Source: Clostridiales bacterium
GTDB taxonomy: Bacteria; Bacillota; Clostridia; Christensenellales; Aristaeellaceae
Assembly: GCA_015056015.1 (NCBI GenBank)
Contig: SVHD01000001.1
Span: 135,636 to 199,635 of the forward strand
Direction of reading: 5' to 3'
DNA length: 64,000 bases
The translations under genes and the position numbers were made by a program. The notes under the pieces are model-generated. The model saw only the letters and a program-made list of their open reading frames with translations. It was not told where the DNA came from and ran no database searches. Each line of letters starts with the position of its first letter. Positions within the stretch are counted from its first letter, which is position 1. This document shows, in pieces, positions 1,947 to 64,000 of this stretch.

Positions 1947-3740
1947 ATGAGCAAAGAATTGCTTGAAATCAAAAAGGATGGGCTGCTTCTGGGCGGCAAG
2001 CCCTTTTACCTGGCCAGCGGCTCTTTCCATTATTTCCGCACCATGCCCGGCGGCTGGAGAAAGCGCCTGGAACTGATGAAGGATTTTGGTCTCACTGCGG
2101 TGCAGACCTATGTAGCCTGGAATCTGCATGAGCCGGAAGAAGGAAAATTTGATTTTTCCGGTATGCTGGATCTTTCCGCGTTCCTTTCTTTATGCCAGGA
2201 AGTGGGGCTGAAGGTCATGCTTCGTCCCGCGCCCTTTATTTGCTCCGAATGGGAATTCGGCGGCATGCCCTGGTGGCTTTTGAAGGAAAAGAATCAGGCC
2301 CTGCGCTGCATGGACGAGCGCTTCACTAAGGCCGTGCACAATTTCTATCAAGCCCTGGCCCCCCAGTTTGTGCCCCACCTTTCCACCAACGGCGGCCCCA
2401 TCATCGCCGTGGACCTGGAAAATGAATACGGCGGCTATGGCAACGACAAAGAATATCTTCTCTTCTTGAAATCCGAGCTGGAAAACTGCGGGGTGGATGT
2501 GCCCTTCTACACCACCGACGGCAACATTATGCAGATGCTGCGGGAAGGCAGCCTGCCAGGTATCTGGGCGGGGGTGAATTACCGCATCGAAAGCAAGGAA
2601 GCCATTGCCCGTCTGCGCCAGGTGAAGCCCGAATTCGTACCTTTCGTGGGCGAATATTGGTCCGGCCGGGCCACTTACTTTGGCGAGCCCTTCGCCCCCC
2701 GGGAAGTGCCGCCCATCGCAAAAGCCTACCGGGAAGCGCTGGATGAAGGGGCCATGGTGAATTTCTATATGTTCTGCGGCGGCACCAATTTCGGCTTCAT
2801 GAACGGCGCCCGCATCACCCCGCCGTTCAACGGCAAGGGCGATAGAATCTATCGCGCCATCACCACCAGCTATGATGTGAACGCTCTGGTGGGCGAGGAT
2901 GGCTATCCCACCGAAAAATATTTTGCCTGCCGCAAGGAATTGGACGCCTTCCTGGGCAAGCCCGTCCGGGAAGCGGAGGAAGTGAAGCGGGAGGCCATCG
3001 TGCATGCGCCCGTGACCTTTACAAATTGCGCGCCCATGCTGGAAAATCTGCCCGCCCTGACCACGCCTGTCAAATCCGCCGGGCTCAAAACCTTTGAACA
3101 ATTGGATCTGGCCTACGGCTTTATGGTTTATGAAACGGAATTGCATGCCGGCTATCCCGAAGGGCTGCCCCTCAAGATTTTCGGGCTTCATGACCGGATG
3201 CAGGTTTTCGTGGACGGGGAATACAAGGGCTATTATCAGCGGGATGTGGAATCCGATTTCATTCAGCTCTCCACCGGCGACAAGCCTGCCAAGCTTTCCC
3301 TGGTGGTGGAAAATATGGGCCGCAATAATACCGGCCCCCATCTGCGGGATGAAAAGGGCATCCTGGAGGAAGTGCGCTGGGGCTTTCCCAATCTCTTCCA
3401 CTGGACCCATTGGCCCCTGGCCCTGAAGGATTTGAGCGGCCTTGCCTACACCGAAACCGAAACCGAAAAAGCCCCCGCCTTCTACAAGGCCGCTTTCACC
3501 CTGGATGCAATCAAGGATGGGCATCTGGTGATGGAAAACTGCGAAAAGGGCATGGTCTGGGTCAACGGCTTCAATCTGGGCCGCTACTGGAAGATTGGCC
3601 CGCAGCAGTCCCTCTATCTCCCCGCCGATATCCTCAAGGAAGGCGAAAACGAAATCATCGTGCTGGATCTGATGGGCGGCAAGGCCGCAGACAAGCGCGT
3701 CCTCTTCGCCGATCGTCCCCAGTGGGATATCACGGAGTAA
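1947..3740 (+). CDS. Glycoside hydrolase family 35 beta-galactosidase
   Basis: 597 aa; GH35 motifs GGKPFYLASGSFHYFRTMPGGWRKRLELMKDFGLTAVQTYVAWNLHEP, VDLENEYGGYG, GEYWSGRATYFGEP; RBS AAAGGAAG. Confidence 0.95.
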   Translation: MSKELLEIKKDGLLLGGKPFYLASGSFHYFRTMPGGWRKRLELMKDFGLTAVQTYVAWNLHEPEEGKFDFSGMLDLSAFLSLCQEVGLKVMLRPAPFICSEWEFGGMPWWLLKEKNQALRCMDERFTKAVHNFYQALAPQFVPHLSTNGGPIIAVDLENEYGGYGNDKEYLLFLKSELENCGVDVPFYTTDGNIMQMLREGSLPGIWAGVNYRIESKEAIARLRQVKPEFVPFVGEYWSGRATYFGEPFAPREVPPIAKAYREALDEGAMVNFYMFCGGTNFGFMNGARITPPFNGKGDRIYRAITTSYDVNALVGEDGYPTEKYFACRKELDAFLGKPVREAEEVKREAIVHAPVTFTNCAPMLENLPALTTPVKSAGLKTFEQLDLAYGFMVYETELHAGYPEGLPLKIFGLHDRMQVFVDGEYKGYYQRDVESDFIQLSTGDKPAKLSLVVENMGRNNTGPHLRDEKGILEEVRWGFPNLFHWTHWPLALKDLSGLAYTETETEKAPAFYKAAFTLDAIKDGHLVMENCEKGMVWVNGFNLGRYWKIGPQQSLYLPADILKEGENEIIVLDLMGGKAADKRVLFADRPQWDITE

Positions 3741-3757: not shown

Positions 3758-3862
3758 CTGGGGGAACCATTCTTTGTGGCCAAAGAATGGTTCCCCCAGT
3801 CCCCCTCCAAGAAAGCTGTACTGGATATTTTATGCGTGTTCTGATCAGCTTGAATACCAGTG
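3758..3862 (+). repeat. Intergenic hairpin-tail element, copy 1
   Basis: Perfect 19-bp stem CTGGGGGAACCATTCTTTG/CAAAGAATGGTTCCCCCAG, tail CCCCCTCCAAGAAAGC..ACTGGATATT..ATACCAGTG. Confidence 0.85.
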
Positions 3863-3880
3863 TGAGGATAATGGAATATT

Positions 3881-3985
3881 GCGAGAGGGCCTTTCTTTTA
3901 AAAAAAGAAAGGCCCTCTCGCGCTCTCCCAAAGAAAACCGGCTCTGGATGTTTCCAACGTGTTCTCATTCACTTGAATGCCAGTG
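3881..3985 (+). repeat. Intergenic hairpin-tail element, copy 2
   Basis: Perfect 19-bp stem GCGAGAGGGCCTTTCTTTT/AAAAGAAAGGCCCTCTCGC, tail GCTCTCCCAAAGAAAACC..CTCTGGATG..AATGCCAGTG. Confidence 0.88.
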
Positions 3986-4042
3986 AAAAACGTCATGAAA
4001 CAGGGAGAAATTGTCGATCCGAAGGAAAACAACGTAATTTCC

Positions 4043-4106
4043 CAATTGCTTTCTTGGAGGGGGCGCGGGGGAGGGGTTCTTTGGCCACAAAGAACCTCTC
4101 CCCCGC
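4043..4106 (-). repeat. Intergenic hairpin-tail element, copy 3 (inverted relative to copy 2)
   Basis: GCTTTCTTGGAGGGGGC then stem GCGGGGGAGGGGTTCTTT/AAAGAACCTCTCCCCCGC (one mismatch). Confidence 0.8.
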
Positions 4107-4124: not shown

Positions 4125-4769
4125 TCAAATCTTCTCAAATTTTTCGGGGCCCTGCTTACAGATGGGGCATTTTTCCGGGGGCTGGTTTCCGGTGTGGACA
4201 TAGCCGCAGACGGTGCAGCGCCACTGGGGCTGATCGGATTCTTTTTTCGGGGCTTCCGGCTGGAAGGAGGACGCCTTGGGCGGGGTGACGCCCTTTTTCA
4301 CCAGATGATAATCCGCATAGGTGAGGGGCTTGCCATAGCCGGTAACAACCGCCTCTTCCACCAGGCCCACAAAGAGGATATGGGTGCCCACATCCAGGGA
4401 AGAAACCACCTTGCAGGAAAAGGCCGCGCCCACTTCTGCGCTGTCCAGCAGCATGGGATCGCCGGCGGCGGAATGGGTCACGTCCATCCCCGCAAATTTA
4501 TCGATTTCCCGGCCGCTTTTGAAGCCGTAACGGCCAATGAATTCCATATGCGCATCCTGAGTGAGCACATTCACGGAAAAATGCCCGCTTTTCTGAATCA
4601 TTTCGCAGGTGCAGTTTTCCTTATTTACGGCCACGGAAATCTGGGCCGGGGTGGCGGTCACCTGGCAGGCCGTATTGATAATGCAGCCGTAATCCTGGTT
4701 TTCGTAGGCGGTACCCAGCAGATATACGCCATAGGAAAGTTGAAAGAACGCTTTGAAATCCATAATCAT
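4125..4769 (-). CDS. Flavin reductase domain plus C-terminal rubredoxin-like domain (high-molecular-weight rubredoxin type)
   Basis: 214 aa; N-terminal flavin reductase-like (YGVYLLGTAYENQDYGCIINTACQVTATPAQISVAVNKENCT); C-terminal WRCTVCGYVHTGNQPPEKCPICKQG rubredoxin CxxC...CxxC. Confidence 0.9.
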   Translation of the reverse strand: MIMDFKAFFQLSYGVYLLGTAYENQDYGCIINTACQVTATPAQISVAVNKENCTCEMIQKSGHFSVNVLTQDAHMEFIGRYGFKSGREIDKFAGMDVTHSAAGDPMLLDSAEVGAAFSCKVVSSLDVGTHILFVGLVEEAVVTGYGKPLTYADYHLVKKGVTPPKASSFQPEAPKKESDQPQWRCTVCGYVHTGNQPPEKCPICKQGPEKFEKI

Positions 4770-5666: not shown

Positions 5667-5689
5667 CTATTGCTCCTTTTGAGTTTTTT

Positions 5690-5766
5690 GCGGGAGGAGG
5701 CTTTTGAGCCAAAAGCCCCCTCCCGCCCCCTCCCGAAAAGCGATTGGAGAAATTTCAAATTACCAG
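5690..5766 (+). repeat. Intergenic hairpin-tail element, copy 4
   Basis: Stem GCGGGAGGAGGCTTTTG/CAAAAGCCCCCTCCCGC (one mismatch), tail CCCCTCCCGAAAAGCGATTGGAGA..TACCAG. Confidence 0.75.
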
Positions 5767-5820
5767 GATATCAGCAATTTCCTCCAGCTTATCGTTACAG
5801 GGAGACATTGATAATCAGAT

Positions 5821-5901
5821 GGCACCATAAATAATGCCAATAGTTTTCTTGGAGGGGGTGCGGGGGAACCATTCTTTGAAGCCAAAGAATGGTTCCCCCG
5901 C
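5821..5901 (-). repeat. Intergenic hairpin-tail element, copy 5 (inverted relative to copy 4)
   Basis: TTTTCTTGGAGGGGGT then perfect 19-bp stem GCGGGGGAACCATTCTTTG/CAAAGAATGGTTCCCCCGC. Confidence 0.82.
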
Positions 5902-5919
5902 AAATATCCCCATCCCCTC

Positions 5920-6630
5920 TCATCGGGAATACACGCCGGTGATGATTTCTTTTTTGAACAGCTCCGCGTTGGGCTGGCCGCGCCTGCCGGCGTCTTCGGC
6001 GTCGCGGACGGCCTGCTCCCGATCATAGGGCACGGTGACCATGGTAATATCCAGGGGCGAAAGGGTCTTGCTTTCCAATTCTCCGCGCAGGATGGCATAC
6101 TGCACCATGGGCACGCCGATGCCATTGCCCACGCTGCCCGTATTAAAGAGCAGCCCTTTATGGGCCAGTACCCTGGTGCCCTGGCGATGGACGTCTGCAT
6201 AGCCCACCACATCATAATCCGGTTCAAATAACGCGGTGAGAAATTCCTCTTCCCCATAGGTCTGCACGGCATAGGGCAGGAAGGGCCGGCCATGGAGCAG
6301 ACGCATTTTCCGCCCGGAAATATAGCAGGAATATTCCATGGGCAATTGGCACAGGGCCTTCATTCTTCTTTCGCCCAGCTGCCGATAATAAAAATCATCA
6401 TTGGGAAAGAGCATTTCGCCGATGCCCTCTTCCCAATTCCCCTGCAGAATAAATTCGCAGCGGCTTTCCGCCCAGTCAAAGGTGCGATCGGAGGAGGGGC
6501 CCTTGCCGATCACATCCCCCAGGCACCAGATTTTTTCAATGCCCCGTGCCCGCAAATCCCTGTCCAGGGCCTCAGTGGCAGGCCAATTGCCATGCAGATC
6601 GGCCACCAATGCAATTTCAGTCATCATCAT
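5920..6630 (-). CDS. Metallophosphoesterase (calcineurin-like, YfcE/PP-family)
   Basis: 236 aa; IALVADLHGNWPATEAL, IWCLGDVIGKGP, LQGNWEE, LLHGRP, VGYADVHRQ motifs. Confidence 0.9.
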   Translation of the reverse strand: MMMTEIALVADLHGNWPATEALDRDLRARGIEKIWCLGDVIGKGPSSDRTFDWAESRCEFILQGNWEEGIGEMLFPNDDFYYRQLGERRMKALCQLPMEYSCYISGRKMRLLHGRPFLPYAVQTYGEEEFLTALFEPDYDVVGYADVHRQGTRVLAHKGLLFNTGSVGNGIGVPMVQYAILRGELESKTLSPLDITMVTVPYDREQAVRDAEDAGRRGQPNAELFKKEIITGVYSR

Positions 6631-11395: not shown

Positions 11396-11427
11396 AAACA
11401 TCCCATAGATAAGATAAAAGAAATTAT

Positions 11428-11532
11428 GCGGGAGGGGTATTCTTTGTGGCCAAAGAATACCCCTCCCGCACCCACCCCAAGAAAGCCGTACTGGATATTT
11501 CTGATGGATACTAATCCACTAGAATGCCAGTG
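11428..11532 (+). repeat. Intergenic hairpin-tail element, copy 6
   Basis: Perfect 19-bp stem GCGGGAGGGGTATTCTTTG/CAAAGAATACCCCTCCCGC, tail CCCACCCCAAGAAAGCCGTACTGGATATTT..AGAATGCCAGTG. Confidence 0.9.
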
Positions 11533-11564
11533 AAACGCGAGGATAATGTCGACATCCACGAGCC

Positions 11565-11626
11565 GGGCGGCGTTTGCCGCCCAGCGGATGCAAAGCATCC
11601 GGGAAAACCAGGGTCATTGACCCTGG
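11565..11626. repeat. Triple stem-loop cluster
   Basis: GGGCGGCGTTTGCCGCCC (11565-11582), CGGATGCAAAGCATCCG (11585-11601), CCAGGGTCATTGACCCTGG (11608-11626). Confidence 0.7.
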
Positions 11627-11680
11627 ACCCAATTGCGGAATAATCGAAACTTTTCTAACAACATGTTTCCCGCTGATACG

Positions 11681-11725
11681 AAAAAACGGCAACGGAGAGA
11701 ATGAATTCTCTCCCGTGCCGTTTTT
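11681..11725. terminator. Bidirectional terminator-like hairpin
   Basis: AAAAAACGGCaacggGAGAGAatgaatTCTCTCccgtGCCGTTTTT. Confidence 0.6.
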
Positions 11726-11829
11726 GTTTTCGGTTGGCCCGTGGATTATTATTGCTCGTTTCTTCAATTTTTCGTTTTCACAAGTTTCGTGCGAAAACAA
11801 CTGTGTTTTTCCATCCAAGCCATTTCGCA

Positions 11830-11893
11830 AGCCGGAGTCCAGAGGAGAATCTCCTCTGGCGCGGGGTACAGGGGGCGCGGAGCCCCCTGCCTC
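11830..11893. repeat. Double stem-loop cluster
   Basis: CCAGAGGAGAATCTCCTCTGG followed by CAGGGGGCGCGGAGCCCCCTG. Confidence 0.6.
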
Positions 11894-11902
11894 CGACAAT
11901 TC

Positions 11903-17229: not shown

Positions 17230-17277
17230 TAAAAAATGCAGGAAACAGCATTTCACTGTTCCCTGCATTTTTCTTTT
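17230..17277. terminator. Bidirectional intrinsic terminator between convergent genes
   Basis: AAAAAATGCAGGAAACAGcatttcaCTGTTCCCTGCATTTTTCTTTT. Confidence 0.8.
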
Positions 17278-17291
17278 ATGATTCTTTTGCT

Positions 17292-17371
17292 TCACCGGCA
17301 ATATCCAATACAGCTTTCTTGGGGTGGGTGCGGGAGGGGGATTCTTTGGCAGCAAAGAATCTCCCTCCCGC
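17292..17371 (-). repeat. Intergenic hairpin-tail element, copy 7 (short-tail variant)
   Basis: Reverse strand: stem GCGGGAGGGAGATTCTTTG/CAAAGAATCCCCCTCCCGC (one wobble), tail CACCCACCCCAAGAAAGCTGTATTGGATATTGCCGGTGAA with the ~25-30 nt internal spacer absent. Confidence 0.82.
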
Positions 17372-17393
17372 AATATTTTCCCTTCCGTTCCCC

Positions 17394-18587
17394 TCACCAA
17401 GTGGCGCAGGCGTCCTGATAGAAGGCGTCCATTTCTTCCTTGGTGGGGAAATTGGCCACATACATCTGATTGCCCATGGCGCCGGAGAGGGCGTCGGGGA
17501 TGCGATCGACCATGCGCATCTGCTTCTGATATTTATTCACCAGTTCATCATGGCTGAGCTTGAAATTCTTGCCATCCCGGCGTCCGGCAAAGGCGCAGAA
17601 ATTCTTTTCGCCGCAGGCCTTGAGGGTAGAATCATAGGCGATCATATCGGCATAAATCTTGTAAACGTCGGTGGCGTTGGCAAAATTCATCATATCGGGA
17701 GAGAAACCGCCGCAGGGGCGCATATTCACTTCCAGAGCCACCACATCGCCCTTCTTGCCCATATGGGGATGATCGGCAGTGAGACGGAAGAATTCAAAAT
17801 GCACGAAGCGATTCTTCACCCCAAAGGATTTCACCGTGGCGCGGCCCGCCTTGCGGGTATCCTCGGGCAATTCGTTGACGATGTAATAGATGGAATTATC
17901 GCCGTTATTCACCACGTCCATGATGGAATTGGGGGTCACATTGCCGGTTTCAAAGATAGGCTCCCCGCGGCTGTCGATGATAGCGTCGTAGCTGTTCACT
18001 TCCGCGGTGATGAATTCTTCCATGATATAGCTCACATGGCTTTCCTTTTCATTGAGGAAGGTATGCAGATCGGCGTCATTCTTCAGCTTGTAGGTGCTGG
18101 AAGCGCCCACGCCGTTATCAGGCTTGACGATGACGGGATAATTCACCTTTTCGATGAATTTTTTGCAGTTTTCGTAATTATCCACGATATGATACCGGGC
18201 CGTGGGGATGCCCACCGCCTGATAATAGGGCTTCATCTTGGATTTGTATTTGATGCGCTCCATATCCTCCGTTTGGAAACCGGAGGTAATATGGAAATCA
18301 GTGCGCAGCATGGCGTCCCTTTCCAGCCAGTATTCATTGTTGCTTTCCAGCCAGTCAATGCGGCCATACTTGCTGATGAAGAAGGCCACCGCCCGATACA
18401 CTTCATCGTAATTCTCCATGGAATTGACCTTGTAGTATTCATGCAGGCTTTCCTTGAGTTCAGGCAGCAGGGTATCGTAGGTCTGATCGCCCACGCCCAG
18501 CACCCGCAGGCCATTATCCTTCAGATGCTTGCAGAACTGCCAGTAGTTGGTGGGGAAATTGGGGGAAATGAACACGAAATTTTTCAT
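17394..18587 (-). CDS. ATP-grasp family carboxylate-amine ligase-like protein
   Basis: 397 aa; YPVIVKPDNGVGASSTYKLKN, YIMEEFITAEVNSYDAII, FVHFEFF, VALEVNMRPCGG. Confidence 0.88.
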   Translation of the reverse strand: MKNFVFISPNFPTNYWQFCKHLKDNGLRVLGVGDQTYDTLLPELKESLHEYYKVNSMENYDEVYRAVAFFISKYGRIDWLESNNEYWLERDAMLRTDFHITSGFQTEDMERIKYKSKMKPYYQAVGIPTARYHIVDNYENCKKFIEKVNYPVIVKPDNGVGASSTYKLKNDADLHTFLNEKESHVSYIMEEFITAEVNSYDAIIDSRGEPIFETGNVTPNSIMDVVNNGDNSIYYIVNELPEDTRKAGRATVKSFGVKNRFVHFEFFRLTADHPHMGKKGDVVALEVNMRPCGGFSPDMMNFANATDVYKIYADMIAYDSTLKACGEKNFCAFAGRRDGKNFKLSHDELVNKYQKQMRMVDRIPDALSGAMGNQMYVANFPTKEEMDAFYQDACATW

Positions 18588-21990: not shown

Positions 21991-22025
21991 CGGGAGGGTG
22001 CTTTTGAATCAAAAGCATCCTCCCG
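21991..22025. repeat. Hairpin of the intergenic element family, copy 8, no tail
   Basis: CGGGAGGGTGCTTTTGA/TCAAAAGCATCCTCCCG (one G-T). Confidence 0.65.
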
Positions 22026-22040
22026 CAAATTATCTTTGAA

Positions 22041-23693
<1,653 letters not shown>

Positions 23694-26854: not shown

Positions 26855-26870
26855 GGGACAGGGATATATT

Positions 26871-26978
26871 GCGGGAGGGCCTTTCTTTTTGAAAAAAAGA
26901 AAGGCCCTCCCGCACCCTCCCAAAGAAAAACCTGCACTGGATATTTCTATTCTTTTCCACCCCAGCTGTGTGCCAGTG
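26871..26978 (+). repeat. Intergenic hairpin-tail element, copy 9
   Basis: Perfect 20-bp stem GCGGGAGGGCCTTTCTTTTT/AAAAAGAAAGGCCCTCCCGC, tail ACCCTCCCAAAGAAAAACCTGCACTGGATATTT..GTGCCAGTG. Confidence 0.9.
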
Positions 26979-26991
26979 AAAAATGGCATAC

Positions 26992-27026
26992 AAAAAAAGA
27001 TCTGCATTTTCATGCAGATCTTTTTT
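26992..27026. terminator. Bidirectional terminator
   Basis: AAAAAAAGATCTGCATtttcATGCAGATCTTTTTT between convergent genes. Confidence 0.88.
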
Positions 27027-34932: not shown

Positions 34933-37286
<2,354 letters not shown>

Positions 37287-37303: not shown

Positions 37304-37565
37304 GCGAGAGGGACTTTCTTTTGAAAAAGAAAATCCCTCTCGCGCTCTCCCAAAGAAAACTTGCTCTGGATTTTTCTTATCCGCATGAAAGCCGCTTGAA
37401 TGCCAGTAGAGCAGAGGAAAAGAAAGTCCCTCTCGCATTCTCCCGAAGAAAACTTGCTCTGGATTTTTCTTATCCGCATGAAAGCCGCTTGAATGCCAGT
37501 GGAGCAAGGGAAGGGTTAAGAAAAATCCCTCCCGCGCTCTCCCGAAGAAAACCTGCACTCCCTTT
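37304..37565 (+). repeat. Tandem array of three tail units of the intergenic element (copies 10-12)
   Basis: Stem GCGAGAGGGACTTTCTTTT..GAAAATCCCTCTCGC, then CTCTCCCAAAGAAAACTTGCTCTGGATTTTTCTTATCCGCATGAAAGCCGCTTGAATGCCAGT repeated almost identically 83 bp later, plus a third partial unit. Confidence 0.88.
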
Positions 37566-43935: not shown

Positions 43936-44016
43936 CGGCAGAATAATGCGGCAGAATAATGCGGCAGAATAATGCGGGAGGGTATTTCTTTTGAAAAAGA
44001 AATACCCTCCCGCACC
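43936..44016 (+). repeat. Three 13-bp repeats followed by intergenic hairpin element, copy 14
   Basis: (CGGCAGAATAATG)x3 at 43936-43974 then perfect 19-bp stem GCGGGAGGGTATTTCTTTT/AAAAGAAATACCCTCCCGC and tail ACCCTCCCAAAGAAAACTG. Confidence 0.85.
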
Positions 44017-44080
44017 CTCCCAAAGAAAACTGCTTCGGGAAGATTCAATTCAATATCAATTCCGGGTTTCCCCGTATTTT

Positions 44081-46378: not shown

Positions 46379-46430
46379 AAAACGCCTTTTGCAGAAATTT
46401 TTCCTGCATCTTTATGGATAACTGGCACTC

Positions 46431-46523
46431 AAAATAATTCGTACACCCCTGAAATATCCAGAATAAGTTTTCTTTGGGAGAGCGCGAGAGGGTCTTTCTT
46501 TTTCAAAAGAAAGACCCTCTCGC
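46431..46523 (-). repeat. Intergenic hairpin-tail element, copy 15
   Basis: Reverse strand: perfect 19-bp stem GCGAGAGGGTCTTTCTTTT/AAAAGAAAGACCCTCTCGC, tail GCTCTCCCAAAGAAAAC..CTGGATATTTC..GTGCCAG. Confidence 0.88.
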
Positions 46524-46541: not shown

Positions 46542-47843
46542 TTACTTACCCAGCATGATATTGAGGATTTCGTGATCGGTATCGCGCATGCCGTCCCGGC
46601 CCATGCGGGCGGTATTGGCAATGGTCTGATCGATGCTTTCATCCACGATGCCTTCCCCGTCGCCGAATACCTTGCCTTCCTTGGCCATCAGATGGCCCAG
46701 AATCGCGGCGTCCACGGCGGAGGCAATCTTGGCCGCGCAGGAGGGCTTGGCGCCGTCACAGACGATGCCAGCCACATTGGCCAGGGTATTTTTGATGGTA
46801 TCGGCAATTTCCTGATCGGTGCCGCCGGTGACGAAGGTAATCCCCGCGCCGCAGCCGCCCGCCGCGGAAACCGCGCCGCAGAAAGCGCTCAATTTGCCCA
46901 TATCCCGCTTGATATAGATGCTCACCAGATTGCTCAGCGCCAGCGCGCGATATTTCATTTCTTCCGTGGCATTCACTTCTTCTGCATAGGCCAGCACGGG
47001 CAGGCTCACCGTGATCCCCTGATTGCCGCTGCCGGAATTGATCACCACCGGCATCACGCAGCCGCTCATGCGGGCGTCGCTGCCGGCCGCAGCCAGGGCG
47101 CGGGCGCGCACCTTGATATCTTCCTTGCCGTAATAGCGCATCAGCGTTGCGCCTACCTGTTCGCCATAGGGATGGGAAAGCCCTTCCTGCGCGATGGAGG
47201 TATTGAGCTCCTCCTGCTTTTTCAGCACGGGAATGACGCTGCTGATATCCCCTTCCCGGCAAAACGCAATAATATCCTGCAGATTCAGATTGCCGTATTC
47301 CGGGGCAGGGGCAGCCGCCTTGGGCGCATCCGGCGTTTTTTCCAGCAAAATCTGCCCGTTCTTTTCAATCCGGGTAATCTGGGTATGGGCATCCTTGATT
47401 TCCACCAGGGCGTAATCATCCCCCGCTTCCGCCCGCGCCCGAATCAGCAGATTTGGCACATTGGGAATCAGATCTACCCCGCAATAATCCGTTTTCAAAA
47501 GGGCCTTGGTCTTTTCCAGATCCGCTTCCGTAATCTGGGAGAGCACTTCCAGCTTCAGTTCGGCCTTTCCCCCGACCGTGCCCAGAATGGCGCTGGGCTC
47601 CACGCCCTTGAGATTGCCGGTGCCGGGCACAATAACGCCCTTCACATTCTTGATAATATTTCCGGAGCAGCCCACCCGGATTTTTTCCGGCATTCTGCCT
47701 AAGATATCCCTGGCGGTGGCGGCGGCGTATGCAATGGCAATAGGCTCGGTGCAGCCCAGGGCCAGCATCAATTCATTTTCCAGAATTTCGGCATAATTTT
47801 TTTCCAGCAGGGCCAGATCGGCGCCTGTTTTTTTCATATCCAT
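46542..47843 (-). CDS. L-serine/L-cysteine deaminating UPF0597 (CyuA/SdaA-alpha-like) family protein
   Basis: ENELMLALGCTEPIAIAYAAATARDILG, VIVPGTGNLKGVEPSAILG, VINSGSGNQGITVSLPV, GAVSAAGGCGAGI. Confidence 0.9.
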   Translation of the reverse strand: MDMKKTGADLALLEKNYAEILENELMLALGCTEPIAIAYAAATARDILGRMPEKIRVGCSGNIIKNVKGVIVPGTGNLKGVEPSAILGTVGGKAELKLEVLSQITEADLEKTKALLKTDYCGVDLIPNVPNLLIRARAEAGDDYALVEIKDAHTQITRIEKNGQILLEKTPDAPKAAAPAPEYGNLNLQDIIAFCREGDISSVIPVLKKQEELNTSIAQEGLSHPYGEQVGATLMRYYGKEDIKVRARALAAAGSDARMSGCVMPVVINSGSGNQGITVSLPVLAYAEEVNATEEMKYRALALSNLVSIYIKRDMGKLSAFCGAVSAAGGCGAGITFVTGGTDQEIADTIKNTLANVAGIVCDGAKPSCAAKIASAVDAAILGHLMAKEGKVFGDGEGIVDESIDQTIANTARMGRDGMRDTDHEILNIMLGK

Positions 47844-47974: not shown

Positions 47975-48076
47975 GCGGGAGGGGATTCTTTGCGGCCAAA
48001 GAATCCCCTCCCGCGCCCACCCAAGAAAGCCATACTGGAATATACAAATTTTCACAGAATCATCTTATGTGCCAGT
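47975..48076 (+). repeat. Intergenic hairpin-tail element, copy 16
   Basis: Perfect 18-bp stem GCGGGAGGGGATTCTTTG/CAAAGAATCCCCTCCCGC, tail GCCCACCCAAGAAAGCCATACTGGAATATA..TGTGCCAGTG. Confidence 0.88.
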
Positions 48077-48097
48077 GCTACAATCATATTTTCACGC

Positions 48098-48201
48098 TTC
48101 ACTGGAAATCCTGCCGATTCAATAAGAACATGCAGCATCCAGAGTCGGTTTTCGGAGGGGGCGCGGGGGAACCGCTTTTGCCTCAAAAGCGGTTCCCCCG
48201 C
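48098..48201 (-). repeat. Intergenic hairpin-tail element, copy 17 (inverted relative to copy 16)
   Basis: Reverse strand: perfect 18-bp stem GCGGGGGAACCGCTTTTG, tail CCCCCTCCGAAAACCGACTCTGGATG..CCAGTGAA. Confidence 0.88.
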
Positions 48202-61439: not shown

Positions 61440-62465
61440 ATGACGAAGAATATTCGCTGCGCCATTTACGGCGCGGGCTCCCTGGGCACGGTGCTGGGGG
61501 CATATATGACAAAAAACGGCGCCAAGGTGGATCTGATCAACCGGAATCAGGCCCATGTGGCGGCGCTGAAGGCGCATGGCGCGAAAATCAATGGCACGGT
61601 GGATCTGACGGTGCCGGTCAGCGCCCTGACCCCCGATGAAATGGAAGGCGTTTATGATGTGATCCTGCTGCTTACCAAGCAGCTGAAAAACCCCGAAGTG
61701 GTTTCCATGCTCAAGGATTATCTGGCGGATGACGGCGTGCTGGTTACCCTGCAAAACGGCATCCCCGAGCCCGGCATTGCCGAAATCATCGGGGAAGGGC
61801 GCACCATGGGCTGCGTGGTGGAATGGGGCGCCACCCTTTCCGCGCCCGGGGTTTGCACCCTCACCAGCCATCCCGACAGCCTGTCCTTCCATATGGGCAA
61901 AATGAAGGGCATCACGGATGAACAATTTGCCATGGTCAAGGAATTGCTGGAATTGATGTGCCCCGTTTATGAAGAAACCAATCTGCTGGGGGCGCGCTGG
62001 TCCAAGCTGCTGATCAACGGCGTATTTTCCGGGCTGGGCACCGTCATCGGCGGCACCTTCGGCGATGTGGCCGGGGATCCCCAGGCGCGGAAGGTGGCCC
62101 TTGCCTGCATGAAGGAATGTATCGATGTGGGCCATGCCGCCGGGGCGGAATTCGTGCCGGTGCAGGGCAAAAATATCATCAAATTATTCTATTATAAAAA
62201 TCCCCTCAAGCGGGCCTTTGCCAATCTGCTGATCCCCATCGCCATGAAAAAGCATCGGGCCATCGAGCCTTCCATGCTCCAGGATCTGAAAAAAGGCAAG
62301 CCCTGCGAAATCGACGCCATTAATGGCGTGATCTGTGAATGGGGCAAAAAATGCGGCGTGAAAACCCCCATCAACGATAAAATCGTGGAAATCGTGAAAA
62401 AGGAAGAGGCCGGCGAGCTGAAATGGGAAAAAAGCAATCTCCGCTTCTTCGAGGGCCTTGTGTAA
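61440..62465 (+). CDS. Ketopantoate reductase family protein
   Basis: IRCAIYGAGSLGTVLGAYMTKNGAKVDLINRNQAHVAALKAHG, VLVTLQNGIPEPGIAEIIG, RWSKLLINGVFSGLG. Confidence 0.92.
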   Translation: MTKNIRCAIYGAGSLGTVLGAYMTKNGAKVDLINRNQAHVAALKAHGAKINGTVDLTVPVSALTPDEMEGVYDVILLLTKQLKNPEVVSMLKDYLADDGVLVTLQNGIPEPGIAEIIGEGRTMGCVVEWGATLSAPGVCTLTSHPDSLSFHMGKMKGITDEQFAMVKELLELMCPVYEETNLLGARWSKLLINGVFSGLGTVIGGTFGDVAGDPQARKVALACMKECIDVGHAAGAEFVPVQGKNIIKLFYYKNPLKRAFANLLIPIAMKKHRAIEPSMLQDLKKGKPCEIDAINGVICEWGKKCGVKTPINDKIVEIVKKEEAGELKWEKSNLRFFEGLV

Positions 62466-62478
62466 ATCGTTCAATATT

Positions 62479-62582
62479 GCGAGAGGGTGTTTCTTTTAAA
62501 AAAGAAACACCCTCTCGCGCTCTCCCAAAGAAAACCAACTCTGGAACACACGATTCGCCTTAAATCCAATTGTATTCCAGTG
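62479..62582 (+). repeat. Intergenic hairpin-tail element, copy 20
   Basis: Perfect 19-bp stem GCGAGAGGGTGTTTCTTTT/AAAAGAAACACCCTCTCGC, tail GCTCTCCCAAAGAAAACCAACTCTGGAA..TATTCCAGTG. Confidence 0.88.
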
Positions 62583-62657
62583 ATACAAAAAGGGATTCCC
62601 CGTTTCGTTTTCCCCACGCATCACGGGAAATTGCCAATTCCATAACAGATTAAATAT

Positions 62658-62726
62658 TCCCGAAACAGCTTTCTTGGAGGGGGTGCGGGGGAACCATTCT
62701 TTGGCTTCAAAGAATGGTTCCCCCGC
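62658..62726 (-). repeat. Intergenic hairpin-tail element, copy 21 (inverted relative to copy 20)
   Basis: GCTTTCTTGGAGGGGGT then perfect 19-bp stem GCGGGGGAACCATTCTTTG/CAAAGAATGGTTCCCCCGC. Confidence 0.85.
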
Positions 62727-62746
62727 AATCTTTCCCCCCACAATTT

Positions 62747-63865
62747 CTATTTCGTCATCTCCCCCACCGCGGCGATCAGCGCGTCCACGTCGCCCTCGGT
62801 GTTGAAAGGGCCCAGGCTTGCCCGGACGGCGCCCCGGGTGCCCAGCCAGGCATGGATAGCCGGCGCGCAATGCAGCCCGCCCCGAAGCGCAAATTTTTGC
62901 ATGCTCAGGGTGTCGGCCACCTCGCCGCTGTCCCTGTCCCGGATATTGAAGCTGACCACCCCCACCCTGGGCGCGTCATCCGCCCCATATACCGTCAAGC
63001 CGGAAATATTTTTCAGTCCCTGCCGCAATCGCAGGGCCAGAAAATGCTCATATTCCGCAATAGCCCCCTGATGCCGCAGGATGAATTTCAGGCCCTGGCT
63101 AAGCCCGGCGATCCCGGGCAGATTGGCCGTGCCGCTTTCCAGGCGATCGGGCAGCATGGCGGGCTGCAGCATGCTTTCCGAGGCCGATCCCGTTCCCCCT
63201 TCCCGCAGCGGCCGGGGCAAAATACCCTTCCCCACATAAAGCAGCCCCGTGCCCATGGGCCCCAGCAGCCCTTTATGCCCGGGCATGGCGATCATATCCG
63301 CATGAATGGGGGCTAAATCCTCGGTTCCGGCGGTCTGGGCGGCGTCCAGCAAAAGGGGCACGCCCTTTTCATGGCAGGCCCGGGCGATCTCCCGGGCAGG
63401 CTGGATCACGCCGGTCACATTGCTGGCATGGCAAAGCACGCAAAGGGCCGTTTTCGGGCCGATGGCGGCACGCACCGCATCCGGGGAAAGCAGTCCCCTT
63501 TCATCCGGCGGCAGCATCCGCAGGGTAATCTTCCCTGCGGCATGATAGCCCATCAGCGGCCGCATCACCGCATTATGCTCCCCATGGGAAACGATTACTT
63601 CATCCCCCTGATGCAATGTGCCCCTGATGGCCATATTCAGCGCATCGGTGCAATTGAGGCAGAAAATAATATTTTCCGGGGTGGAAACGCGCAAATACTG
63701 CGCCGCCAGTTCCCGGCAATTTTCCATGATCCTGCCGCCCGCCAGCGCCCCCGCATGCCCGGCCCGGCCCGGGTTCCCGCCAATCTTTTCCATCACCCCC
63801 GCCATGGCGCGAATCACCTCCGGGGGCTTGGGGAAGCTGGTGGCCGCATTATCCAGATAAATCAT
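62747..63865 (-). CDS. Class V aminotransferase / cysteine desulfurase family protein
   Basis: MIYLDNAATSFPKPPEVIRAM, HGEHNAVMRPL, LLDAAQTAGTEDL, MPGHKGLLGPMGTGLLYVG, LRGGLHCAPAIH. Confidence 0.93.
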   Translation of the reverse strand: MIYLDNAATSFPKPPEVIRAMAGVMEKIGGNPGRAGHAGALAGGRIMENCRELAAQYLRVSTPENIIFCLNCTDALNMAIRGTLHQGDEVIVSHGEHNAVMRPLMGYHAAGKITLRMLPPDERGLLSPDAVRAAIGPKTALCVLCHASNVTGVIQPAREIARACHEKGVPLLLDAAQTAGTEDLAPIHADMIAMPGHKGLLGPMGTGLLYVGKGILPRPLREGGTGSASESMLQPAMLPDRLESGTANLPGIAGLSQGLKFILRHQGAIAEYEHFLALRLRQGLKNISGLTVYGADDAPRVGVVSFNIRDRDSGEVADTLSMQKFALRGGLHCAPAIHAWLGTRGAVRASLGPFNTEGDVDALIAAVGEMTK

Positions 63866-63937
63866 GCTTTTCCTCCCTCGCGGCTGCACCCGCCGCCTCT
63901 TTTCACCATAGAATATATGAGAAAGAAGGGAGGAGCA

Positions 63938-64000
63938 TGACCATGCAGGAAACATTCGGCATCGGCGCTTTTCGTTCCCGGCAGCAGGTGATGCGCTTTG
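63938..64000 (+). CDS. Start of a DUF3343-like (putative Se/S carrier) small protein, cut by window edge
   Basis: GGGAGGAGC-ATG; MTMQETFGIGAFRSRQQVMRF...; divergent to the cysteine desulfurase-like gene. Confidence 0.4.

Follow-up and report, generated by a model that had tools for sequence, protein, structure and literature searches.

A BIME-like family of putative pseudoknotted, intrastrand-triplex-type hairpins behind stop codons in an uncultured gut Clostridia bacterium

The window analyzed here is a 64,000-nucleotide stretch of contig C74 from G000, a draft metagenome-assembled genome (2.9 Mb, 106 contigs, 84.5% complete) of an uncultured gut Clostridia bacterium. At a serine dehydratase locus it carries two inverted, noncoding elements separated by a short AT-rich spacer (pair 1). 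Further copies lie elsewhere in the window, three more inverted pairs among them (Table 1); across the window we counted 16 strong hairpins of one kind, all but one with a common 3' linker. The unit is about 115 nucleotides (nt) long and consists of a long perfect hairpin (SL1), a C-rich linker, and a weak second stem (SL2). SL2 (CTGGA...CCAGTG or CGGGA...TCCCG) is also more variable than SL1.

Table 1. Repeat elements located in the window
Feature	Position	Strand	Evidence
Pair 1, plus element (SL1, linker, SL2)	47975..48077	+	Sequence; CM R1, 61 bits; alignment A1
Pair 1, plus SL1, GCGGGAGGGGATTCTTTG-CGGC-CAAAGAATCCCCTCCCGC	47975..48014	+	Hairpin listing
Pair 1, plus linker, GCCCACCCAAGAAAGCC	48015..48031	+	Sequence; mirror test; loop-pairing tests
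Pair 1, plus SL2 (CTGGA...CCAGTG)	48035..48077	+	Sequence; folds of homologous copies (weak, variable)
AT-rich spacer separating the pair 1 tails	48078..48099		Sequence
Pair 1, minus element, short-loop class	48100..48201	-	Sequence; CM R1, 55.7 bits
Pair 1, minus SL1, GCGGGGGAACCGCTTTTG-AGG-CAAAAGCGGTTCCCCCGC	48163..48201	-	Hairpin listing
Pair 1, minus linker, GCCCCCTCCGAAAACC; stem mirror GGGGG/CCCCC, CTTTTG/GAAAAC	48146..48162	-	Sequence; mirror test
Tandem plus copy upstream of pair 2, after stop at 3740	3758..3862	+	Hairpin listing; CM R1
Pair 2, plus element	3881..3985	+	Hairpin listing; CM R1
Pair 2, minus element, 19 nt past stop of gene 4125-4769 (-)	3998..4106	-	Hairpin listing; CM R1
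Pair 3, plus element	5689..5783	+	Hairpin listing; CM R1
Pair 3, minus element, 18 nt past stop of gene 5920-6630 (-)	5794..5902	-	Hairpin listing; CM R1
Pair 4, plus element, 14 nt past stop of gene 61440-62465 (+)	62479..62586	+	Hairpin listing; CM R1
Pair 4, minus element, 20 nt past stop of gene 62747-63955 (-)	62617..62727	-	Hairpin listing; CM R1
Single element	11427..11537	+	Hairpin listing; CM R1
Single element, 22 nt past stop of gene 17394-18587 (-), then intrinsic terminator	17262..17372	-	Hairpin listing; CM R1
Single element, 16 nt past gene end 26854; intrinsic terminator next (26993-27026)	26870..26978	+	Hairpin listing; CM R1
Single element, 18 nt past stop at 37286; two 5'-truncated tandem copies next	37304..37413	+	Hairpin listing; CM R1
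Single element	43973..44080	+	Hairpin listing; CM R1
Single element, 19 nt past stop of gene 46542-47843 (-)	46414..46523	-	Hairpin listing; CM R1

A first-pass annotation of the window had described four pairs with tails facing inward and hairpins outside. All four are present at or near the positions it gave, but its minus members were drawn too short, with SL2 left out (about 3998-4106 instead of 4043-4106, and about 62617-62727 instead of 62658-62726). It missed the mirror linker, the pairing between loop and linker, and the spacing from stop codons described below.

SL1 has 15 to 19 bp, made up of a G-rich purine block, two or three variable pairs, and a T-rich pyrimidine block (TTCTTT, TTTCTTTT, or CTTTT). 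Block by block, the C/A-rich linker complements these SL1 blocks in parallel and so reads as a mirror image of the 3' arm. G-rich blocks and their linker matches include GAGAGGG/CTCTCCC, GGGAGGG/CCCTCCC, GGGGGAACC/CCCCCTCC, and GGGGGAAACC/CCCCCTTCC; further matches are TTCTTT/AAGAAA, TTTCTTTTG/AAAGAAAAC, and CTTTTG/GAAAAC. In the plus member of pair 1, the linker mirrors the SL1 3' arm (CCCACCC, AAGAAA) and then reads GCC, which is able to pair with the loop GGC. In its geometry, the linker departs from the foot of SL1, ascends parallel to the 5' arm, and reaches the loop.

The mirror match between linker and stem exceeds both of its controls. Linkers scored a mean of 9.56 against their own stems, compared with 7.82 (maximum, 8.12) when permuted among copies, a permutation that ignores the shared ancestry of subfamilies, and 4.46 when their letters were shuffled. 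We also considered that the linker might pair with the SL1 5' arm in antiparallel orientation and rejected this, as it showed no such coupling (6.13 versus 6.05 in the control). When hairpins were scanned without regard to sequence, 42 of the 77 strong ones here had a mirror linker; two other families of the order yielded such hairpins too, and shuffled controls yielded 0. By own-versus-shuffled mirror score and by scan, the elements carry the three-block triplex code (duplex arm, arm, and third strand).

The loop and the end of the linker covary as well. A full Watson-Crick triple between them was complete in 67 of 91 copies (24 expected from permutation, again without regard to subfamily ancestry), and slid registers gave 0. 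In relatives, 84 of 103 copies had the full triple against 19 expected, with seven types (GGC/GCC, AGC/GCT, TGC/GCA, GCC/GGC, GTC/GAC, AAC/GTT, and ACC/GGT) and base exchanges at each of the three positions. Pseudoknot covariation was 0.517; shuffled partners gave 0.184, and slid partners did not exceed 0.246. In pair counts, the covariation of both SL1 and the pseudoknot held against both controls. Since the linker mirrors the 3' arm and pairs with the loop with covariation, the element is a pseudoknot with a potential third strand. With this polarity, the linker could form triplets of the pyrimidine motif along the G block and of the purine motif along the A block. The former need low pH when C residues are consecutive, and RNA does not form triplexes of the latter kind. 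Read from the opposite strand, the element would instead give G·G-C and T·A-T, which should be more favorable at neutral pH by the rules in PMC4666352.

The linker motif occurs 25 times in the window against 3.4 expected, and a covariance model (CM) of SL1 and linker (R1, from alignment A2 of the window copies) matched at least 150 places in G000 with E values down to 1e-18, which excludes chance as the source of the repeat family. A profile scan of 720 kb of G000, sampled as stretches that make up about a quarter of the genome, gave 189 copies. The family was present in 24 of 25 genomes sampled from the genus and two other families of the order. Its range as defined by sequence is narrow, with few copies elsewhere in the class; mirror hairpins of similar structure and other sequences occur in several other families. 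There were no above-threshold Rfam matches in the window, only subthreshold ones near pair 1. CCCC..TTCAAAAACTTT, a consensus proposed for other Clostridia, was set aside after matching none of 391 genomes. Weak matches at four loci of other Clostridia (L194, L196, L197, and L198) correspond to a hairpin, GGGACGGTTCTTTT...AAAAGAACCGTCCC, of a distinct long-stemmed family.

The elements are strongly positioned relative to genes, which we called with a simple, purpose-written dicodon caller (starts are approximate; a stop is exact if its frame was called correctly). Of the 185 elements in the 720 kb that have a gene on each side, convergent gaps held 91, tandem gaps 92, and divergent gaps 2; only 1 of 80 divergent gaps was occupied. 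SL1 started 5 to 30 nt past the stop codon in 117 of the 151 elements that lie behind a codirected gene. None of the 131 tandem and convergent gaps shorter than 100 bp had an element, and all 19 convergent gaps of 250 to 399 bp were occupied, so the length of these gaps comes from the element. Sites behind stop codons and between convergent genes, together with tails or spacers that in some cases lead into a hairpin and T tract, would suit bidirectional transcription terminators. We regard this explanation as improbable: the sequence after SL1 is C/A rich rather than T rich, E. coli PIT motifs showed no terminator activity (PMC4666352), and intrinsic-terminator-like sites were about equally common in convergent gaps with (46%) and without (50%) an element. 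A terminator role was rejected on this last count, as intrinsic terminators are not depleted at element-bearing gene ends.

Next to each other, the elements keep a restricted order. Among 58 neighbors less than 300 bp apart in the 720 kb, 42 were tail to tail, none were head to head, and 16 had the same orientation (9 plus-plus and 7 minus-minus). Stretches from other genomes added six tail-to-tail pairs, one same-orientation pair, and no head-to-head pair. One possible explanation is that the pairs are not units at all: each gene would have one 3' element, and convergent genes would yield tail-to-tail pairs by geometry. This agrees with the 41 of 84 elements of tail-to-tail pairs that are in convergent gaps, mostly with SL1 5 to 30 nt past each stop. 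However, 21 tail-to-tail pairs lie between codirectional genes, where the second member is not behind any gene, and head-to-head pairs are absent. With half of the pairs between codirectional genes, gene orientation alone cannot explain the inversion. For tandem gaps, the geometric explanation is already contradicted, also by the composite conserved between the codirectional genes pgk and tpiA (see below), and overall we consider it distinctly unlikely.

The members of a pair differ from each other more than chance would give. Only 1 of 42 pairs shared both stem and loop class (5.6 expected; P = 0.014), and SL1 similarity was lower within tail-to-tail pairs than between random pairs (0.381 versus 0.448; P = 0.0024), these tests resting on 40 to 42 pairs; the tails of pair members showed no significant difference in similarity (40 to 42 pairs). 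The rule by which the plus member has a GAGG stem and the minus member a GGGGG stem describes the four window pairs and fails as an orientation rule for the genome. Across the 720 kb, class was not coupled to orientation: in pairs between tandem genes, the gene-proximal member was of class A2 in 9 cases and B in 6, and the distal member was B in 8 and A2 in 7. The plus/minus rule is a small-sample effect. Unlike partners are probably the outcome of losing identical inverted neighbors, which would form perfect palindromes of about 250 bp of the kind that bacteria lose.

Near-identical single units occur at unrelated sites, where the shared sequence is about 115 to 120 bp with clean ends, from about -6 to +113 relative to the start of the hairpin; one such match has 95% identity over 119 bp. 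A single element can thus be the dispersed unit. Most copies are single rather than paired. The earlier proposal of a BIME- or MITE-like composite is borne out in its BIME-like part, i.e., two inverted, nonidentical units, by the codirectional half of the pairs and by persistence at pgk-tpiA. A composite as the only mobile unit is not supported, given the dispersed single elements with clean ends and the convergent-gap half of the pairs, which amounts to one 3' element per gene. An ordinary MITE, in which the composite is mobile, the two elements are its terminal inverted repeats, and a DDE transposase moves it, could account for inverted ends, a size of 200 to 290 bp, and high copy number. 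We consider it highly improbable, as most copies are single, no autonomous partner was found (one transposase family searched), and pair members resemble each other less than random pairs do, whereas the terminal repeats of one unit should be alike.

To follow a composite across species, we relied on the pgk-tpiA gap. The locus of pair 1 is not syntenic in relatives, neighboring species share about 75% protein identity, and a comparison with G001 yielded 19 orthologues and 2 conserved gaps; the pgk-tpiA gap was used instead. This gap lies between codirectional genes that are orthologous across the genus (TpiA is 86 to 100% identical to the query). A tail-to-tail composite was present in 16 of 21 readable species. 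The gap is down to one hairpin or element in G006 and G004 and has a related hairpin without linker in G019, and in G007 (L168) and G022 (L177) it holds different, unrelated long inverted repeats of AGGGATTAGGGAATAGGG or GGAATTCGGAATTCGGAATT units. Stem class varies by species, yet the linker changes with the stem and still matches it, which indicates that the fold is kept while the sequence is rewritten.

These data bear on whether the family is a purely selfish REP/BIME-type repeat, perhaps spread via single-stranded DNA, that survives where it is harmless, behind stops. The mirror and pseudoknot would then be recognition features of a mobilizing enzyme, and IS200/IS605-type transposases do use base triples and hairpins. 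The clean-ended dispersal of near-identical single units and the avoidance of promoter gaps are consistent with such a repeat, as is a very uneven copy number among species: within the genus it ranges from 0 in G018 (95% complete; zero copies by model) to about 14 to more than 130 elsewhere, with most sister species having tens to hundreds. Such wide variation is as compatible with a tolerated repeat as with a function. G018 is a natural comparison genome. On the other side, Y1_Tnp/RAYT was not found in G000 or in the element-rich G006, G007, G010, G036, and G040, and the pgk-tpiA composite is kept across the genus, with other long inverted repeats replacing it in two species. RAYT/Y1_Tnp is probably not the mobilizer: PF01797 was not found in G000 (84.5% complete); it was present in 12 of 34 other genomes searched, and its presence does not follow element number. 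We think a purely selfish repeat rather unlikely.

We instead favor, at somewhat better than even chances, a BIME-like family whose unit is a pseudoknotted hairpin of the intrastrand-triplex type with a likely structural role at the 3' ends of genes. The linker would turn back on SL1 and run alongside the 5' arm in parallel, as a block-wise mirror complement; its last three bases would pair with the SL1 loop, and SL2 follows. Units accumulate directly behind stop codons and are nearly absent from promoter gaps, and neighbors retain only tail-to-tail or tandem order; identical inverted pairs would be lost as palindromes and unlike pairs would stay. At transcript 3' ends or between cistrons, the structure may block 3' exonucleases and/or read-through and would be retained during sequence turnover. 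Such a transcript-end or intercistronic function is our leading inference, held with moderate confidence and drawn from sequence comparisons.

The closest known relatives are the BoxC, PIT, and TM (TM_ECO) intrastrand-triplex repeats of E. coli, described by Holder et al. (2015; PMC4666352, which cites Hoyne and Maher) and known since 2000 (PMC4666352 and its references). Like TM_ECO, the present repeats are intergenic and multicopy and consist of a hairpin plus a third block with triplex polarity after a turn of about 3 nt (GGGAGGG-N3-GGGAGGG...CCCTCCC on the opposite strand). The E. coli TM/PIT motifs showed no promoter or terminator activity and no stable triplex in vivo (PMC4666352). Close inverted pairs of TM_ECO always combine type A with type B (5 of 5; PMC4666352), and here 41 of 42 pairs differ in stem or loop class. 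Unlike TM_ECO, which has one block, the elements have two blocks of opposite strand polarity (an alternate-strand pattern), their third strand Watson-Crick pairs with the loop (PMC4666352 mentions no pseudoknot), and SL2 is added. The sampled quarter of the genome holds about 190 copies, versus 23 of TM_ECO in E. coli. They lie at a fixed distance past stop codons, whereas TM_ECO showed no distance preference (PMC4666352). The TM_ECO consensus CCCTCNCCCN3-6GGGNGAGGGN3GGGNGAGGG was not found in the element sequences; between the G-block arms there are about 20 nt, including the second stem block, compared with 3 to 6 nt in TM_ECO.

Enterobacterial REP/BIME sequences are extragenic palindromes with hundreds of copies, 3' to genes and in alternating orientation (PMC2817692), and many REPs lie 1 to 20 nt from the end of an open reading frame (PMC12306157). 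The present family shares the high copy number, extragenic location, alternating orientation, and unlike units. It differs in that no RAYT was found in the 84.5% complete G000 and in that the mirror linker and pseudoknot fall outside the REP definition. The REP foot tetranucleotide GTAG or CGTC (PMC3733652) was not seen at the hairpin foot, where the sequence upstream of SL1 is A/T and purine rich and ends in T-T before GCG. The elements resemble MITEs in being short, noncoding, and dispersed, with inverted ends in the composite, but single units without terminal inverted repeats predominate. They are best filed with the intrastrand-triplex/BIME type, the covarying loop pseudoknot and the positioning at stop codons being the new features.

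The family has hundreds of copies per genome in several unlike sequence classes with one fold. These copies and classes, the covariation of stem, third strand, and loop, and the orthologous sites in the genus make selection on the fold directly testable. The literature on the E. coli intrastrand-triplex repeats held no evidence for such selection among the papers examined. That inverted neighbors are unlike, as in the type A plus type B pairs of E. coli TM motifs, now holds in an additional, unrelated lineage and suggests that such neighbors are constrained in general; an element so strongly positioned at 3' ends should aid the study of mRNA ends in uncultured Clostridia. More tentatively, and with the chances somewhat against it, the fold (hairpin, alternate-strand third strand, and loop pseudoknot) may be clade-wide, rapidly rewritten, and a standard 3'-end/intercistronic module in these Clostridia. 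If so, the covariation would be the first comparative evidence of selection on a bacterial intrastrand-triplex-type fold, and unlike inverted partners would be a general rule that keeps such modules from becoming palindromes.

Several further repeats were seen near the elements. The two truncated copies at 37400-37560 each retain linker and tail but lack the left SL1 arm, which suggests local duplication with hairpin loss. A hairpin with the same style of stem (CGGGAGGGTGCTTTTG...) and no mirror linker lies at 21991-22025, 16 nt past the stop of the gene at 22041-23669 (minus strand). After the element at 11427, positions 11550-11900 hold a longer multihairpin repeat (CGGATGCAAAGCATCCG, CCAGGGTCATTGACCCTGG, and AGAGGAGAATCTCCTCT); a copy at C33:32800 matches over about 350 bp at 81% identity, and contigs C25, C34, and C101 share shorter stretches. 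Finally, a different repeat of about 95 to 150 nt (CATCGCATRCCC...GTCACAAACCC..GGGTTTGTTCC) sits in the SL1 loop of several elements (in the G000 pgk-tpiA gap, L183, and at C25:2707, C34:22323, C74:17154, and C74:77813 of G000), as if it targeted these hairpin loops.
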